Shown here in pieces: positions 57,282-64,000 of a stretch of 64,000 bases of DNA. How positions within the stretch are numbered: position 1 is the stretch's first letter; the number at the start of each line of letters is the position of its first letter. Location: positions 1 through 64,000 of the forward strand of contig NZ_JACIDR010000004.1 of assembly GCF_014196425.1 (NCBI RefSeq), given 5' to 3'. The notes beneath the pieces were generated by a model. That model made no database searches. It was not told where the DNA came from and saw only the letters and a program-made list of their open reading frames with translations. The DNA comes from Hansschlegelia beijingensis. Lineage in GTDB: Bacteria > Pseudomonadota > Alphaproteobacteria > Rhizobiales > Methylopilaceae. Made by a program: the position numbers and the translations under genes.

Positions 57282-57926
57282 TCAGTTCGCCGGCACGTCG
57301 GCCCAGAAGCCGCGGTCGTCTCTACAGCGGAGACAGCCCGTCGCCACGCCGAAATGCATGCCCGTGATCTCGAGCTCGCCCTGCTCGACCCGCTCGCGGA
57401 TCCAGGGGAAGCTCATCAGGTTCTCCATCGTCACGCCCACGCAGGCCTGCTCGCCGGCGCGGCTGCGCTCCTCGCCCTCGAGCGCGGGATCGACCTCGGA
57501 CCTGGCCCGCTCGGCGATCCCCATCCAGCTCACCACGAAGTCCGACACCTCGGGCGGGGCGCCGTCGAACAGCGCCTTCACGCCGCCGCAGCCGGCGTGC
57601 GCGAGCACGACGATCCGGCGCACCCCAAGGACGCGGACGGCGAATTCGATCGCGGCGCTGGCGCCGTGATGCGCCTGGTCGGGCGCGTAGGGAGGCACCA
57701 GGGCGGCGACGTTGCGGAGCACGAACAGCTCGCCCGGAGCGGCGCCGAGAATCTGCTGCGGATCGACCCGGCTGTCCGAGCAGCCGATCACCATCACCTT
57801 CGGCGCCTGGCCATGCGCAAGGCTCTCGTACCGGCGCTGCAGTTCCGGCCAGGCCTCATGGCGAAACCGCCGATAGCCCTCGAAAAGCGCGTCCAGAGAT
57901 CCGGCCTGCTTGTCCGCGTCGCTCAT
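57282..57926 (-). CDS. Beta-class carbonic anhydrase
   Basis: 214 residues. Zinc ligands are in VIGCSDSRVDP (Cys, with the Asp-Arg dyad) and in LAHAGCGGVKAL (His and Cys); FVLRNVAALVPP follows the first motif as usual. Interconverts CO2 and bicarbonate in the cytoplasm. The ATG at 57926 has GGAGG just upstream. First gene of a minus-strand group with the Fae homologue and GGDEF gene; bicarbonate supply for C1 carboxylations is a reasonable role. Confidence 0.95.
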   Translation of the reverse strand: MSDADKQAGSLDALFEGYRRFRHEAWPELQRRYESLAHGQAPKVMVIGCSDSRVDPQQILGAAPGELFVLRNVAALVPPYAPDQAHHGASAAIEFAVRVLGVRRIVVLAHAGCGGVKALFDGAPPEVSDFVVSWMGIAERARSEVDPALEGEERSRAGEQACVGVTMENLMSFPWIRERVEQGELEITGMHFGVATGCLRCRDDRGFWADVPAN

Positions 57927-58112
57927 ATGTCCTCCACGCCCCATTCCCGCCGCACGGATCATGGCGGCCACGATCACGTCAACGGCGCAGACCGTCGCGG
58001 GTTTCTCAATCCTCGTCTTCGTGGATGCGGGGCACACTGGCGGCGGGCCGCGGCTCCGCTATCTCGTGCGGGGCAGCTCCTTAGGCTTCGCCCCGATCGA
58101 GCGAGAAGACGC

Positions 58113-58967
58113 ATGGTCAGTCCGTCCGGCGGAGCGGTTCCGCTGCCGCCCGATGACGCCGCCGCCTGGGGCGCGGTCAGAGCCGTCCGGCAGGGCGCGG
58201 TCGTCCCTGCGTCGCTCGAAAACCATCCGCTGTGCCGGATGATGCTGCCGGTCGCGAGACCCGAGACCCTCGTGCTCGCGCAGCTCGGCCAGTCGCTGGA
58301 CGGACGGATCGCGACGATCGGCGGCGGCTCCGCGCTCATCAACGGACCTTGCGGCCTCGACCATCTGCACCGGCTGCGCGCCCTGGCGGACGCCGTGCTG
58401 GTCGGCGTCGGCACGGTCTGCGCGGACGATTGCCAGCTGACGGTCCGCCGCGTGGAGGGGCCGTCCCCGGCCCGGGTCGTCATAGACCCGCGCGGACGGA
58501 TGCCGCCGCGGCCGCGCGCGCTGCGCGACGACGGCGTGAGGCGGATCGTCATCCGCGCCGAGGGCGCGCCGCATTGCGCCGAGCCCGGCGTCGAGACCGT
58601 GCATCTGAGATCGCGCGGCGGCCTCATCGCGCCCGCCGACATCGTCGCGGCGCTCGCGCGGCGGGGATTGCGTCGCCTGCTGATCGAAGGCGGGGCGGCC
58701 ACCGTCTCGGCTTTCATGTCGGGCGGCGCGCTGGACCGCCTGCACGTCGTGGTGGCGCCCCTGATCGTCGGCTCCGGCCAGCCGGGCCTGAGCCTTCCTC
58801 CGATCTGCGACCTTGACCGCGCGGCGCGACCGGTCACGATCGTTCACCCGCTCGCGGACGGCGACGTGCTGTTCGACTGTGACATGCGCGCTTCCGCGGG
58901 CGCCCGATGCGACGGAGGACGCGATGAGCGCGACGCCAGCCCGGGGCGATTATTCGCGGACGGCTAA
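58113..58967 (+). CDS. RibD C-terminal-type reductase
   Basis: 284 residues. A single reductase domain of the RibD_C/dihydrofolate-reductase-like fold, without the deaminase domain of RibD: QLGQSLDGRIATIGGGSALI, LADAVLVGVGTVCADDCQLT, VVIDPRGRMPP and LLIEGGAATVSAF are its motifs. A 50-residue N-terminal extension precedes it. In riboflavin synthesis the domain reduces a ribosylamino-pyrimidine; stand-alone forms serve other pterin or flavin-like pathways. Its neighbours (PTPS-like, glycosyl- and methyltransferase genes) suggest such a pathway. The 3' end overlaps the cytochrome gene by 44 bases. Confidence 0.86.
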   Translation: MVSPSGGAVPLPPDDAAAWGAVRAVRQGAVVPASLENHPLCRMMLPVARPETLVLAQLGQSLDGRIATIGGGSALINGPCGLDHLHRLRALADAVLVGVGTVCADDCQLTVRRVEGPSPARVVIDPRGRMPPRPRALRDDGVRRIVIRAEGAPHCAEPGVETVHLRSRGGLIAPADIVAALARRGLRRLLIEGGAATVSAFMSGGALDRLHVVVAPLIVGSGQPGLSLPPICDLDRAARPVTIVHPLADGDVLFDCDMRASAGARCDGGRDERDASPGRLFADG

Positions 58968-59460
58968 GGTCCTGCACTGGGTGATCGCAGCCCTGGTGCT
59001 GGGGCTGATCCCTGTCGGTTTCTCGCTCGATCTGCTGCCGCAGGGACCCGTTCAGGACTTCGCCTATCTGATGCACAAGTCGACGGGCTTCGTCGTCCTG
59101 GTGCTGATGATCGTGCGCCTCGGCTGGCGGCTGGCCTGCCCGCCGCCCCCGCCGGAGCCGGACATGCCGCGCTGGCAGCAGGCCTTGGCCTCCGCCAACC
59201 ACTACGCGTTCTACGCCATCCTGCTGACGATGCCGTGGCTCGGCTGGGCTGGCTCGAACGCCTTCGGCGCGCCGGTGAGCGTCTATGGACTGTTCACGCT
59301 CCCGGACCTGGTGGCCGAGAACAAGGAGCTCGCGAAGACTCTTCTCGGCTGGCACGCCGCGCTCGGGATCACCGTGACGGCGTTGATCTGCGTGCATATC
59401 GGCGCGGTGCTGTTTCACCGCTTCGTCCGACGCGACGCCGTGCTGGCCCGGATGACCTAG
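58924..59460 (+). CDS. Cytochrome b561
   Basis: 178 residues with four hydrophobic segments. Candidate haem-ligand histidines are in KVLHWVIA, LMHKSTGF, LGWHAALG and CVHIGAVLFH. Bacterial b561 proteins move electrons between quinones and periplasmic or superoxide acceptors. The ATG at 58924 follows GGAGG. It overlaps the reductase gene by 44 bases, strongly suggesting a shared transcript, and its stop shares CTAG with the convergent methyltransferase stop. Confidence 0.92.
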   Translation: MSATPARGDYSRTAKVLHWVIAALVLGLIPVGFSLDLLPQGPVQDFAYLMHKSTGFVVLVLMIVRLGWRLACPPPPPEPDMPRWQQALASANHYAFYAILLTMPWLGWAGSNAFGAPVSVYGLFTLPDLVAENKELAKTLLGWHAALGITVTALICVHIGAVLFHRFVRRDAVLARMT

Positions 59461-60308
59461 CGCGCGGTTCCGGGCGGCTCGAGCAGCAGATCGACATGTC
59501 CGACCTCTCCGCCGCCGGCGGCGGAAGCCTCCCGGAAGGCGAGCCAGGCCGCCAGACCGTCCGGCGCCTCCGCCGTCTCGCTGGCCGCGGAGGCCATTCC
59601 GCGCACGAGCGCCGTCGTAAGCGCCCGATCGGCGGGGCCGAGCCGCCAGGGGCTGCGGCCTTCCAGCGCCCCATAGCCGCTCCGGCGGGCCAGCTCGCAA
59701 AGGCGCGCTCCCGCTTCGGGCCCGAGCGCCGGCCCCAGTCCCTTGTCGCTTCGCTGATGCGCGTTGAAGGCGGCGAGCGCCGCCTCATCAAGGTCGTGCG
59801 GCGGCTGGAACCGCTTGGCGCCGTCATAGATCAGCGGCGCGTAAAGCGTGCGCCGGGCCGCCGTGAGGCGCTCAGCAAAGGCGGTGAGCCAGGCGTCTCC
59901 CGCGAGGTCGAAGAAGGCGACCGCGACGATCAGGTCGGCGGCGGCCGCCGCCGGCGGCAAGGGGGCCGGGGCGAGGTCCGCCCGGCTGAACCGCACTTCG
60001 ATGGTCGCCGCGTCCTTGCGGAGCTTCAGCGCGTCGCCCTCGGCGTCCGAGGCGTCGGCCCAGTCCCGGAGCCGGCTGCGGGCATGGTCGAGAAGGGCGG
60101 CGCTGGAATCGATCAGGGTCCAGCTCTGAACCGTGGCGAGCAGCGGCGCCAGCTTCCGCAACGCCGATCCGGAGCCCGCGCCAAGATCGACGACGGAGAC
60201 AGGCGCGTCGCCGAACTTCGCGGCGAGCCGCTCCAGAGGGCCGGCGGCCAGGGATCTGTGATCGACGGCTTCCCGCAGATCGAGCCAGGCGGGATCGAAG
60301 CCGCTCAC
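59457..60308 (-). CDS. SAM-dependent methyltransferase-like protein in the glycosyltransferase operon
   Basis: 283 residues. Class I fold: motif I VVDLGAGSGSALRKLAPLL near residue 45, acidic residue in LIDSSAALLDHAR, then AADLIVAVAFFDLAGDAWL. No closer family is recognised. The start GTG at 60308 overlaps the glycosyltransferase TGA (GTGA). Last gene of a four-gene minus-strand operon. Confidence 0.82.
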   Translation of the reverse strand: MSGFDPAWLDLREAVDHRSLAAGPLERLAAKFGDAPVSVVDLGAGSGSALRKLAPLLATVQSWTLIDSSAALLDHARSRLRDWADASDAEGDALKLRKDAATIEVRFSRADLAPAPLPPAAAAADLIVAVAFFDLAGDAWLTAFAERLTAARRTLYAPLIYDGAKRFQPPHDLDEAALAAFNAHQRSDKGLGPALGPEAGARLCELARRSGYGALEGRSPWRLGPADRALTTALVRGMASAASETAEAPDGLAAWLAFREASAAGGGEVGHVDLLLEPPGTAR

Positions 60309-61369
60309 GCGGCCTTGCCCGCGCGCGGGGCCCCAGCCATCAGGCGTTCGAAAACGGTGGCGGCGTCCGCCCATCGCGGCAGGGTCTGGCCGCAGGACCA
60401 GGCGGCGTCGGAGGCCGCCGGGCGCGCGCCGCCATCTTCGATCAGCCGCCGCAGCGCCGCCGCGACGCCCCGGACGTCGTCGGGGTCGACCCGCGCGCCC
60501 GCGTCGCGGGGGACGAGCTCGGAAGCCGCCCCTGCGTCTCCGGCGATCACCGGCAGCCCGCGCGCAAGAGCTTCCGCATAGGCCATCCCATAGCCCTCGT
60601 GGCGCGAGGGGAGGGCGAAGAGATCGGCGCTCGCGTAGGCGGCCTCGAGCTCGGCCGGCGCGACGGCGCCGAGAAGTTCGACCCGCTCGTCCAGTCCGAG
60701 TTCGCGGATGAGCCCGGAAAGACGCCGCGCGCAGGCCGGATCCCGATCCGGGCTTCCGACGAGTCTCCAGCGCCAGGCGAGATCGCCCAGCAGGGCGAGC
60801 GCGCGGGCAAGGGTCTCGTGGTTCTTTCGCGGGATCAGGGCGCCGACGCTGAGCACCACAGGCGCGCCGCCGCGGCTGCCCGCCGCGCGCGGAGCCGGGT
60901 CGACGCCAGGCTCGGCGACATGCACGCGCTCTTCCGGGACCCCGTAGCGCGCGACCAGCGTGCGCCGGGTCGCGGCGCTCGTGCACACGACGGCCGCGGC
61001 CTGCGCGAGCGCCTCGCGTTCGCTCGCCTCGAGCCGCTCCGTTTCGGCGGGCGCGAGGCCGGTCTCGAGCGCCAGCGGATGATGCACCAGCGCGACGAGC
61101 GGTCGGCCCAGGCTCCGAAGTCTCTCGGCGGGCAACTCCGCGAAGGCGAGGCCGTCGATCACCAGCGTGGCGCCGCGCGGAGCGGCGGCCAGCAGATCGA
61201 GGCTCCGTGCGAGCGAGGCTTCGGTCGGTCGCGGAAAATCATCCGGCAGCGCCAGCGCGCGCGCCGCGTGCCCGCGCGCCTTGAGCTCGCGCAGAATGCG
61301 GGCGTCGTAGAGATAGCCGCCCGTCGGCGTCGCGAGGTCGCCGGGCGCGGCCAGGATGAATTCACCCAC
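60305..61369 (-). CDS. Glycosyltransferase family 4-type (GT-B)
   Basis: 354 residues. GT-B fold with the C-terminal nucleotide-sugar motif in [20 protein letters not shown] followed by GAASELVP, and the middle [20 protein letters not shown], typical of GT4. Donor and acceptor unknown. GTG start at 61369 overlaps the stop of the PTPS-like gene, so translation is coupled. A soluble enzyme; no membrane segment is seen. Confidence 0.9.
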
Positions 61370-61766
61370 CGACAGGGCCTTCGAACCAGGCGCGGGCGAT
61401 ATGGGACTCCTCGAGCGTGACCCGGATCCGGGACAGGCCCGCCGCGTGCGCGCCCAGAGCGCCTGTCCGGGCGGCTTCCGCCATGCGGTCGAAGATGTGG
61501 CGGCACAGGAATTCCGTTGTGGTCACCTGGCCGGCCAGCTCCTCGGCCTCGTCGAGGTTCCGGTAGTTCAGCGGCGCGAGCGCAGCCTTCAGCGCTTCGG
61601 TGGCGCGCCCGATGTCGACGACGATGTTGTCGGGGTCGAGCTCTTCCCGGAAGAACGCGACGTCGACCACGAAGGTCGCGCCATGCAGCGCCTGGGCGGG
61701 CCCGAACACGTCTCCCTTCAGGCTGTGGGCGATCATGATGTGGTCGCGGACTTCGACGGCGTACAT
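61362..61766 (-). CDS. 6-pyruvoyl-tetrahydropterin synthase/QueD-like protein, divergent
   Basis: 134 residues. The PTPS/QueD fold shows in [46 protein letters not shown] and [14 protein letters not shown]. Canonical members bind zinc through one His in AAH and two in LHGH; here the second motif reads LHGA, so one ligand is absent unless another residue (such as His9 in RDHIM) replaces it. Reaction therefore uncertain. Eight bases separate it from the dehydrogenase gene upstream and it overlaps the glycosyltransferase start. Confidence 0.8.
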
Positions 61767-61774
61767 GGCGGACC

Positions 61775-62776
61775 TCAGGGGTAGCGGAGAACGACGGCGA
61801 GACCCTGCGCGCCCGGCGCCAGAGCGTCCGGCAAGGCGGAGGGAGCGTCGTCGAACAGAATCTCGGTGTCGAGCAGAAGGTCGTAGCGGTTATCGGCCGC
61901 GAGCAGCGCGAGCGCGGCGCCGAGACGGCGTCGCGTGCTCCATCGCGGCCTTCGCGAAGGCGCGACCTGACCGACCTGGGAGGACACCAGCTTGAGCCGG
62001 CGCGCGTGAAACGCGCGGCCGAGCGGCACCGCGACGTCGTCCACGCCATGCCAGCTCATCTCCACCACGGTCGCCTCCTCGCCCGCCGCCGCGAGCGCGG
62101 TCGCAAGCCCCGCGGCGGTCGCGCTGGCGTGGAAGACGACATCGGCGTCGCGGGGCGCGTCGCCCGGCTCGGCGAATCCGGCGCCAAGGCTCTCCGCCAG
62201 AGCCCGCCGCCGCTCATCGACGTCGACCACCGTGACCTCGACGCCCGGCAGCCGGCTGAGCAGCGCCGCCGTCAGAAGCCCGACGGGGCCGCCGCCGACC
62301 ACCACGGCGCGGTCGCAGGGGCCCGCGCCGGAATCCCAGACCGCGTTCAGGGCGGTCTCCATGTTGGCGGCGAGGACCGCGCGGCGAGGGGGCAGTCCAG
62401 CCGGCAGAGGGTGGAGGGTCGACGCGGGCGCGGAGAACGCGTCCTGGTGCGGGTTCAGGCAGAACACCATCCGGCCGGTCAGGTCCGGCGGGCCCGCCTC
62501 GACCCGCCCGACGGCCGCGTAGCCGTATTTGACCGGGCCGGGAAACTCGCCTTCCTGACGGGGCGCGCGCATCCTCCGCCATTCGCTTTCCGGCACCCGG
62601 CCGCCGCAGACCAGTCGCTCGGTGCCCCGACTCACGCCGGAGAAAAGCGTGCGGACGAGGGGCTCGCGCGGGTCCGGGCGGGCCAGCAGCTCCTCCCGAA
62701 GCTCGACGCCGCCACGGCCGTCATACCAGAGGGCTCTGGCACTTAGTGTCTCTGGGCCGTTGTCGGTGACTGTCAT
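61775..62776 (-). CDS. Zinc-type alcohol dehydrogenase-like (MDR family) protein
   Basis: 333 residues. Medium-chain dehydrogenase/reductase: [20 protein letters not shown] in the catalytic domain (the GT(E) region also seen in BchC-like members), [12 protein letters not shown], then the NAD(P) site [20 protein letters not shown] and [19 protein letters not shown]. The structural zinc cysteines of classical ADHs are absent. First gene of the operon with the PTPS-like protein, glycosyltransferase and methyltransferase, so it probably oxidises or reduces the same small molecule. Divergent from opgH. Confidence 0.87.
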
Positions 62777-62886
62777 CCGCCTAAATTCGGAGCAGGTCGT
62801 GCCGGTTTGACGACCGCGGAAGTGATATAGCGGCGCCCCCCGGAGCCGCCAGACCGTCCCTCGTCCGGCCCACCCGAAAGCGTAAG

Positions 62887-64000
62887 ATGCGTTCAGACAC
62901 CGACCTGCTTCAGGCCGCCACTCCCAGCCTCCTCACCGCGAGCGGCCGCCGCGCCGGCACGACTCCGACCGGCTCGCAGTCGATCCTGGCGCTCAGGCTC
63001 AGGCGCGTCGCGATGGGCGCTCTGACGCTCTCGACCTACGCGGCGCTTTCCTACTCCTTCGCCCAGGTCATCGGCGGCGACGGATGGTCGGCGCCGGAGC
63101 TCGCGATGTTCGTCTGCTTCCTGGTGTCGTCGCCCTGGATCGTTCTCGGCTTCTGGAACGCGACGATCGGTTTCGCGCTGCTGCGGTTCGCCAAGGATCC
63201 CGTCGCGTCGGTGGCGCCCTGCGTCCTGACGACGCGTGTGGACGCGCCCGTGGAGGGTCGCCACGCCATCGTCATGTGCATCCGCCACGAGGATTCGGCG
63301 CGCGTCGTGCGCCGCCTCGACGCCATCATGGCGAGCCTCGATGCGACGCCGTTCGGCGACCGCTTCGACCTGTTCGTCCTCAGCGACAGCCAGAAGCCCG
63401 AACTGATCGAAGACGAAGAGGCGGCGATCAGCGCCTGGAGAGCCGGGCTCGAGGACCCGAGCCGCGTCATCTATCGCCGGCGCGACACCAATGAGGGCTT
63501 CAAGGCCGGAAACATACGGGAGTTTCTGGATCGCTGGGCGGACCGTTACGAGGTCATGATCACGCTCGACGCCGACAGCGTCATGTCCGGCGCGACGATC
63601 CTCCGGCTCGTCCGGATCATGCAGGCGAACCCCAAGCTCGGCATCCTTCAGACGCTGGTGGTCGGCCTGCCGGCGCGCACGGTGTTCGGCCGCGCGTTCC
63701 AGTTCGGCATGCGGGCCAGCATGCGCTCCTATTCGATGGGCGCTGCATGGTGGAGCGGCGACTGCGGTCCCTATTGGGGCCACAACGCCGCCATCCGGGC
63801 CAAGGCGTTCCGCGATCACGCGCGCCTGCCGCAGGTGCCGGGCGCGGCGCCGCTGGGAGGGGACGTGCTCAGCCATGACCTCTACGAGGCCGTGCTGATG
63901 CGCAAGGCCGGCTACGAGGTGCGGGTGCTGCCGGAGGAGAGCGGCTCCTGGGAGGACAATCCCGCGACGTTGACCGAGTTCATCCGGCGCAACCTGCGCT
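62887..64000 (+). CDS. opgH: Glucan glucosyltransferase OpgH/MdoH, 5' part
   Basis: 371 codons before the window ends; the complete protein would be about 600-700 residues. Two hydrophobic segments (about 42-62 and 73-96) precede a GT2 domain: DLFVLSDSQKPELIEDEE, GFKAGNIREFLDRW, ITLDADSVMSGATIL (DxD-type metal site) and WWSGDCGPYWGHNAAIRAKA, then GGDVLSHDLYEAVLMRKAGY with the catalytic aspartate region. This matches OpgH, the inner-membrane enzyme that polymerises periplasmic glucans. The ATG at 62887 begins about 110 bases from the divergent dehydrogenase start. Confidence 0.93.
   Translation, partial: MRSDTDLLQAATPSLLTASGRRAGTTPTGSQSILALRLRRVAMGALTLSTYAALSYSFAQVIGGDGWSAPELAMFVCFLVSSPWIVLGFWNATIGFALLRFAKDPVASVAPCVLTTRVDAPVEGRHAIVMCIRHEDSARVVRRLDAIMASLDATPFGDRFDLFVLSDSQKPELIEDEEAAISAWRAGLEDPSRVIYRRRDTNEGFKAGNIREFLDRWADRYEVMITLDADSVMSGATILRLVRIMQANPKLGILQTLVVGLPARTVFGRAFQFGMRASMRSYSMGAAWWSGDCGPYWGHNAAIRAKAFRDHARLPQVPGAAPLGGDVLSHDLYEAVLMRKAGYEVRVLPEESGSWEDNPATLTEFIRRNLR

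Follow-up and report, generated by a model that had tools for sequence, protein, structure and literature searches.

Introduction

Proteins of the COG0720 family that carry an FGPAQ signature were set apart as the subfamily PTPS-IV in the AGeNNT study (PMC5445326), where PTPS-IV genes were placed in a neighbourhood of PF00925 (there called FolE2) and PF01872 (RibD_C); the subfamily is also treated in PMC5041015. The accessible part of PMC5445326 gives PTPS-IV no function, and names no MDR dehydrogenase, GT4 glycosyltransferase, methyltransferase or cytochrome b561 for it, nor any MdoH, CDP-alcohol transferase, flippase-like or creatininase member. Here we describe a set of six genes, one of them for a PTPS-IV protein, at positions 58113-62776 of contig NZ_JACIDR010000004.1 of Hansschlegelia beijingensis, where all six are present and intact. 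The window analysed is the stretch of 64,000 nucleotides that begins at position 1 of this contig. FGPAQ, PF00925 and PF01872 are common to the published neighbourhood, as far as the accessible part of that paper describes it, and to the set and its relatives; MDR, GT4, methyltransferase, b561 and membrane genes are added here. What is already known is thus the subfamily and its association with GTP cyclohydrolase II and RibD_C; the whole set with its membrane genes did not appear in the literature searched.

Three further systems invite comparison. SCO6650, an actinobacterial protein deposited as uncharacterized, belongs to the same subfamily as the PTPS-IV protein of the window. Its structure paper is said to have found neither zinc nor PTPS activity. 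Cyanobacterial pterin glycosides (cyanopterin, biopterin glucoside), which start from GTP cyclohydrolase I, would have a glycosylated pterin product in common with the set if the product proposed below is correct. The archaeal-type early riboflavin route, with a separate formamidase and a stand-alone reductase, and BrbF of Sinorhizobium meliloti (PMC9478397, accessible part) show the same kinds of first enzymes and, in some of our loci, creatininase-family proteins, but where those routes go on to lumazine synthase and riboflavin synthase, the set has MDR, PTPS-IV, GT4 and methyltransferase genes. A search of the open-access literature, which left preprints and most subscription papers outside, turned up no account of the complete set, of its membrane genes or of the compound that it makes. 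An earlier sequence-only reading of this DNA had put forward no named pathway with exactly this gene set; that statement stands for the searchable literature, whereas the link between PTPS-IV, PF00925 and RibD_C was in print (PMC5445326, accessible part).

We report that the six genes belong to a true functional set that is common to at least two phyla, Pseudomonadota and Actinomycetota. We propose, at a probability of about 55%, that the set is a dedicated PTPS-IV module that converts an early riboflavin intermediate into a glycosylated, methylated pteridine or aminopyrimidine, probably for the cell envelope.

Conservation of the gene set across genomes and plasmids

A genome collection was scanned with the MDR protein, and the best 80 loci of at least 515 relatives were retained. 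A PTPS-IV profile was searched in 398 Pseudomonadota genomes, and 72,556 plasmid records were searched by tblastn. The 110 loci compared comprised the 80 MDR-seeded loci, 20 PTPS-seeded genomes (of 26 other than the window's own) and 10 of 20 plasmid records; some of these loci are cut by contig ends. Genome-level counts refer to the same draw of 398 genomes, with E-value thresholds of 1e-25 for PTPS-IV, 1e-50 for MDR, 1e-50 for RibD and 1e-15 for the methyltransferase; this search scores only a few preliminary candidates in each genome, and three RibD and two methyltransferase matches hold one internal stop.

PTPS-IV was found in 27 of the 398 genomes, the window's own included, and in 20 of the 72,556 plasmid records. 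The MDR type was present in exactly the same 27 genomes. RibD of the cluster type occurred in 24 of the 398, all inside the 27 (it was absent from G086, G382 and G392), and the methyltransferase in 25 of the 27 (not in G200 and G217) and in one of the 371 others (G369). The 27 genomes represent 19 genera and 11 families, from the window's class and one or more further classes, and as relatives they are not independent draws. Nine MDR loci had no PTPS gene in the stretch read; all nine genomes carry one PTPS-IV gene elsewhere. A chance neighbourhood was rejected on the identical 27-genome distribution of PTPS-IV and MDR, with RibD and the methyltransferase nested almost fully within it. The sequence-only reading, which had named a chance neighbourhood as the outcome if homologues did not co-occur elsewhere, was thus borne out in its view of a real set. 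The single methyltransferase match outside the 27 (G369, C2:66675-67472) has no PTPS-IV or MDR match in its genome and may be a remnant or a separate use.

Matches among the 110 loci were most frequent for MDR (108), PTPS (101), the glycosyltransferase (95), the methyltransferase (91) and MdoH (80), followed by RibD (55), b561 (46), GTP cyclohydrolase II (45), FkbM (45), CDP-alcohol transferase (16), creatininase (11), the LPG_synthase_TM type (11) and a sulfatase type (10). FkbM and MdoH matches may include unrelated neighbours, and the MdoH matches of two loci (L128 and L129) are weak (34-35%) and distant. Accessory family names rest on Pfam searches of one or two examples each, with the sulfatase example below the cut-off. 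The 20 PTPS-seeded genome loci, which were not chosen by MDR, held MDR in all 20, the glycosyltransferase in 19, the methyltransferase in 18 and RibD in 16; GTP cyclohydrolase II was present in 7 of them, and the CDP-alcohol transferase and MdoH in 8 each.

Gene order was also kept. MDR and PTPS lay on the same strand in all 99 loci holding both and were less than 300 bases apart in 95. The order MDR-PTPS-GT-MT (glycosyltransferase, methyltransferase) was found in Rhizobium, Agrobacterium, Methylosinus, Thiodictyon, Streptomyces and Microbacterium records, that is, across Alpha- and Gammaproteobacteria and two actinomycetes; in Polynucleobacter (L053) the first three genes are together and the methyltransferase is apart. 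On a tree of MDR and PTPS, Polynucleobacter stood among Hyphomicrobiales rows, and copies of the set are also found on plasmids, which suggests that the set has spread partly by horizontal transfer. When frames were clustered from 29 loci, a selection weighted towards distant relatives, one further family appeared in at least four loci, an ABC ATPase in five. An ATPase-like gene, recognised by eye, lies between MDR and PTPS in L027 (7095-8315), and a similar one follows MDR in L014 (11081-12316), where the stretch holds no PTPS. Among the MDR-seeded loci, a protein of about 367 residues with no Pfam match recurs in 36 of 80 (for example L032, 5765-6925) and a membrane protein of about 787 residues in 20 of 80 (for example L037, 15300-17663); both families may be ordinary Hyphomicrobiales synteny.

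The PTPS-IV protein and the enzymes encoded beside it

The PTPS-IV protein of the window (61362..61766, minus strand, 134 residues, PF01242, 4e-21) has the T-fold and carries the FGPAQ signature. In an alignment of 71 rows, FGPAQ was present in 69 and HGA in all 71, in the place of the HGH motif, which was found in none; the third zinc histidine is therefore gone, while His14, His28 and Glu120 are kept in every row. No cysteine column reaches half of the 71 rows. Compared with QueD and 6-pyruvoyl tetrahydropterin synthase, PTPS-IV retains the T-fold and the pterin-anchoring glutamate, E120 aligning with the C-terminal anchoring Glu of QueD, but it has neither the complete three-histidine zinc site nor the catalytic cysteine nor the Asp-His pair. 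Identity to the QueD of the same genome, with which these differences were established directly, is 27%. The closest solved structure is PDB 3d7j (SCO6650 of Streptomyces coelicolor; profile E 2.7e-55, covering 131 of 134 positions); four further PTPS entries matched much less well. An AlphaFold model of PTPS-IV (pLDDT 91) superposed on 3d7j with a TM-score of 0.91 at 60% identity, and on QueD and PTPS entries with TM-scores of 0.64-0.76 (by query length). The two partners described for PTPS-IV recur among the relatives, PF00925 in 45 and PF01872 in 55 of the 110 loci, and the window holds PF01872 only. A queuosine or folate role for this gene was rejected, as a QueD with its usual motifs is encoded elsewhere in the genome and, apart from an ABC ATPase, no further family recurs in four or more of the 29 clustered loci. 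Two Streptomyces plasmids hold PTPS-IV genes with no MDR, GT4 or RibD nearby (L111, 9001-9426; L112, 9001-9399), and the surroundings of both contain cupin, MBL-fold and BTAD-regulator genes.

Transcription of the minus-strand genes would run in the order MDR, PTPS-IV, GT4, methyltransferase, with an 8-base gap between MDR and PTPS-IV, an 8-base overlap between PTPS-IV and GT4 and a 4-base overlap between GT4 and the methyltransferase. The two plus-strand genes, RibD_C and b561, share 44 bases, and the b561 and methyltransferase genes run towards each other and overlap by 4. Frames and Pfam matches confirmed the earlier description of six genes with these minus-strand spacings and of a plus-strand pair converging on them.

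The MDR dehydrogenase (61775..62776, minus strand, 333 residues) has an NAD(P)-binding glycine loop and falls just under the Pfam ADH_zinc_N cut-off (30.3 against 31.8 bits). Residues G161, G163, G166 and D185 are invariant in 17 rows. The protein also has an aspartate at the end of the second strand, as is usual for NAD, and it probably uses NAD. No cysteine is invariant in the 17 rows, and the best cysteine column (57 of 80) has an alanine in the window's protein; a classical zinc site is therefore unlikely, and the protein is unlikely to be a classical zinc alcohol dehydrogenase. Its best NCBIfam match is bchC (TIGR01202), and an assignment as BchC was rejected at 38.1 bits against a cut-off of 291, leaving a weak likeness.

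RibD_C (58113..58967, plus strand, 284 residues, PF01872, 1e-36) is a stand-alone reductase. Pfam found no deaminase domain in it, and it scores below the curated cut-off for eubact_ribD (82.6 bits against 156) with the reductase domain present. Its best solved relative is 6p8c, deposited as 2,5-diamino-6-ribosylamino-4(3H)-pyrimidinone 5'-phosphate reductase, followed by 2azn and RibD entries. A second RibD_C gene lies elsewhere in the Hansschlegelia genome. A plain riboflavin operon was rejected on the missing deaminase domain, the second RibD_C gene and the absence of a lumazine or riboflavin synthase family recurring in four or more of the 29 clustered loci. The cytochrome b561 (58924..59460, plus strand, 178 residues, prokaryotic type, PF01292, 4e-32) retains six histidines in 38 of 38 rows, and in 28 of the 32 loci holding both, its gene is on the same strand as RibD and less than 300 bases away.

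The GT4 glycosyltransferase (60305..61369, minus strand, 354 residues, GTG start, PF13692, 1e-28) carries the EX7E motif: of 68 rows, all have E258 and 67 have E266. The class I S-adenosylmethionine-dependent methyltransferase (59457..60308, minus strand, 283 residues, GTG start, Methyltransf_25, PF13649, 2e-7) gave an AlphaFold model (pLDDT 96) of generic class I fold, with a best TM-score of 0.64 among the PDB matches listed; this fold comparison offered no clue to its substrate.

Precursor supply and membrane-associated genes

The sequence-only reading had suggested looking for GTP cyclohydrolase genes joining the set. Relatives agree with this: of the 45 loci with a GTP cyclohydrolase II match, 41 show the strict zinc-cysteine motif CxTGDxxxSxxCDCG, and the protein of L016 passes NCBIfam NF006456 (481 against 464 bits). 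The window's own genome does not. The four loci that miss the strict motif are L110, where the annotated protein has CECG, L134, and L013 and L066, whose matches are separated from the MDR gene by almost 10 kb. Beside RibD_C, in the place where many relatives carry GTP cyclohydrolase II, the window has a beta-type carbonic anhydrase gene (57282-57956; Pro_CA, 7e-42).

Creatininase-family genes were found in 11 of the 110 loci, nine of which also hold GTP cyclohydrolase II. The window's genome encodes one creatininase-family protein, 49% identical to that of a Vineibacter locus (L064). BrbF of Sinorhizobium meliloti is described, in the accessible part of PMC9478397, as a creatininase-family formamidase for the same intermediate. 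The diaminopyrimidine is probably supplied here by the housekeeping riboflavin route.

Across 110 divergent bases (62777..62886, no strand assigned), in which a consensus scan found no sigma-70-like site, the MDR gene faces a gene for an MdoH-like membrane glucosyltransferase of 641 residues (62887..64000, plus strand), which continues beyond the end of the window (full frame, L145 12888-14813). This protein is 45% identical to the annotated MdoH of a Methylosinus plasmid (L118) and takes its name from this likeness. MdoH-type matches occur in 71 of the 80 MDR-seeded loci, on the strand opposite MDR in all 70 with the gene called. The MdoH-like gene beside MDR probably belongs to the set.

A CDP-alcohol phosphatidyltransferase was found in 16 loci, and its motif DxxDGxxAR...GxxxDxxxD is intact in 16 of 16 (as GARxDMExD in this type). 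At the genome level this type is present in 14 of the 27 PTPS-IV genomes, at about 500 bases or less from MDR in 12 of the 14; in a thirteenth (G016) it is placed with RibD. The CDP-alcohol transferase is thus part of the system, and it points to a lipid. The type was absent from 13 PTPS-negative genomes (13 of the 371), a weak control in that all 13 belong to the window's order, where one of 13 PTPS-IV genomes is positive. Genes of the LPG_synthase_TM type (flippase-like) always stand alongside the CDP-alcohol transferase. The MdoH-like gene of the 71 MDR-seeded loci takes the place of the transferase or accompanies it. In G016 the RibD gene lies about 60 kb from the core, adjoining FkbM, CDP-alcohol transferase and MdoH, and this arrangement ties the core and membrane halves together. 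The CDP-alcohol label requires three changes on the tree of MDR and PTPS; arrangements of the membrane genes were therefore exchanged more than once. Both the MdoH-like neighbour and the lipid-headgroup and flippase-type genes of the relatives had been missed when the DNA was first read.

Discussion

In the pathway that we propose for the PTPS-IV module, GTP cyclohydrolase II in the relatives, or the housekeeping riboflavin route in Hansschlegelia, would supply 2,5-diamino-6-ribosylamino-pyrimidinone phosphate, and the stand-alone RibD_C would reduce its ribosyl chain to ribityl. BchC turns a secondary alcohol next to a ring system into a ketone, and in keeping with its weak likeness to BchC the MDR protein may, with NAD, oxidise a hydroxyl of this chain in the same way. 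Were this the C2' hydroxyl, RibD and MDR together would give the same amino-ketone as the rearrangement catalysed by GTP cyclohydrolase I, and by chemical reasoning its keto group could close on the 5-amino group to the 7,8-dihydroneopterin phosphate skeleton. PTPS-IV, which lacks the usual zinc site and keeps the glutamate that anchors pterins, may hold or close the ring, which GT4 and the methyltransferase would decorate. The compound would be passed to a lipid or glycan by MdoH or FkbM, or else by the CDP-alcohol transferase and the flippase-like protein that accompanies it. The presence of cytochrome b561, in under half of the loci, suggests that it may exchange electrons with the compound. 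As first put forward from the sequence, the product would be a glycosylated, methylated pterin-like compound.

Several observations weigh against this proposal. PF00925 occurs just once in the window's genome, where it forms the second half of RibBA (L143 9305-10435, on contig C2 of the genome) and has no zinc cysteines; the first riboflavin step in Hansschlegelia therefore probably uses another enzyme. Neither the CDP-alcohol transferase nor the flippase-like gene is present at the window's locus, and the transferase type is absent from the genome, whose four CDP-alcohol family members are all of other types. The ring-closure route is an argument from chemistry. GT4 is missing from the operon of two Rhodobacterales plasmids, the second having a GT4 gene about 5 kb away, two Streptomyces plasmids have PTPS-IV without the remaining genes, and b561 occurs in just 46 of 110 loci. 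RibD is lacking from 48 MDR-seeded loci. Among 20 of these genomes tested, 15 (eight of them Bosea or Boseaceae) had no cluster-type RibD at 1e-30, four had a strong match elsewhere and one had a weak match resembling housekeeping RibD; RibD_C is therefore usual but not indispensable, or is replaced by housekeeping RibD.

The membrane genes could also be taken to mean that the product is a glycolipid or glycan of the envelope whose head group is unusual, with PTPS-IV and RibD recruited to a chemistry that involves no pterin ring. The CDP-alcohol transferase with its intact motif (16 of 110 loci), the LPG_synthase_TM type always with it (11), the sulfatase-like genes (10) and the MdoH type (80) would all suit such a product, as would the loss from PTPS-IV of the PTPS-type catalytic residues that were compared. 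We consider it unlikely, since a ring derived from GTP is indicated by the zinc-intact GTP cyclohydrolase II of many loci, by a reductase that belongs to the same pathway and by the kept anchoring glutamate. The membrane genes would have little part in a diffusible pterin-type pigment, acting as a light screen or signal, that they merely export or adjoin. Such a compound would be in keeping with GT4 and a methyltransferase in one set and with the pterin glycosides known from cyanobacteria (PMC13259868, accessible part), but the CDP-alcohol transferase, near MDR in 12 of 14 PTPS-IV genomes and with RibD in a thirteenth, indicates a lipid, and we regard a diffusible product as quite improbable.

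GTP cyclohydrolase II and RibD_C are riboflavin enzymes, and the set might accordingly make a modified flavin or a product of the riboflavin branch, such as a glycosylated flavin or a flavin precursor that is secreted. Neither lumazine synthase nor riboflavin synthase recurred in at least four of the 29 clustered loci, where the ABC ATPase alone did so, and the cluster RibD has no deaminase domain in a genome that holds a second RibD_C gene. PTPS-IV would moreover be left without a role, and a flavin product seems to us just as improbable as a diffusible pterin. Each family is common on its own, and the PTPS gene is labelled 6-carboxytetrahydropterin synthase in plasmid records, so that one might think of a chance neighbourhood or of genes for queuosine or folate; but PTPS-IV and MDR occur in the same genomes, QueD with its usual motifs is separate, and no further family recurs in four or more of the 29 clustered loci except the ABC ATPase, which makes this explanation hardly credible.

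The PTPS-IV module can be extended to a more specific product, a membrane-anchored pteridine: a GTP-derived ring with a polyol chain, glycosylated, methylated, joined to a lipid by the CDP-alcohol transferase or, in the window's lineage, carried on an MdoH-type glucan, then flipped across the membrane, with b561 keeping it reduced. This extension is speculative, and we think it rather unlikely in this full form. If true, a membrane-anchored pteridine would constitute a new kind of lipid-linked redox cofactor, and the set would define a pterin route independent of GTP cyclohydrolase I, through GTP cyclohydrolase II, reduction by RibD, oxidation by MDR at C2' and closure on PTPS-IV.

Our results suggest that the labels '6-carboxytetrahydropterin synthase' and 'zinc-binding alcohol dehydrogenase' on genes of the set are wrong. 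Of the Pseudomonadota genomes sampled, about 7% (27 of 398) keep this set, as do some actinomycetes, without a product named in the literature that we found. The proposed module would explain the purpose of orphan PTPS-IV proteins, and of GTP cyclohydrolase II and stand-alone RibD encoded beside non-riboflavin genes, and might bring a new pterin-type cofactor or lipid to light.

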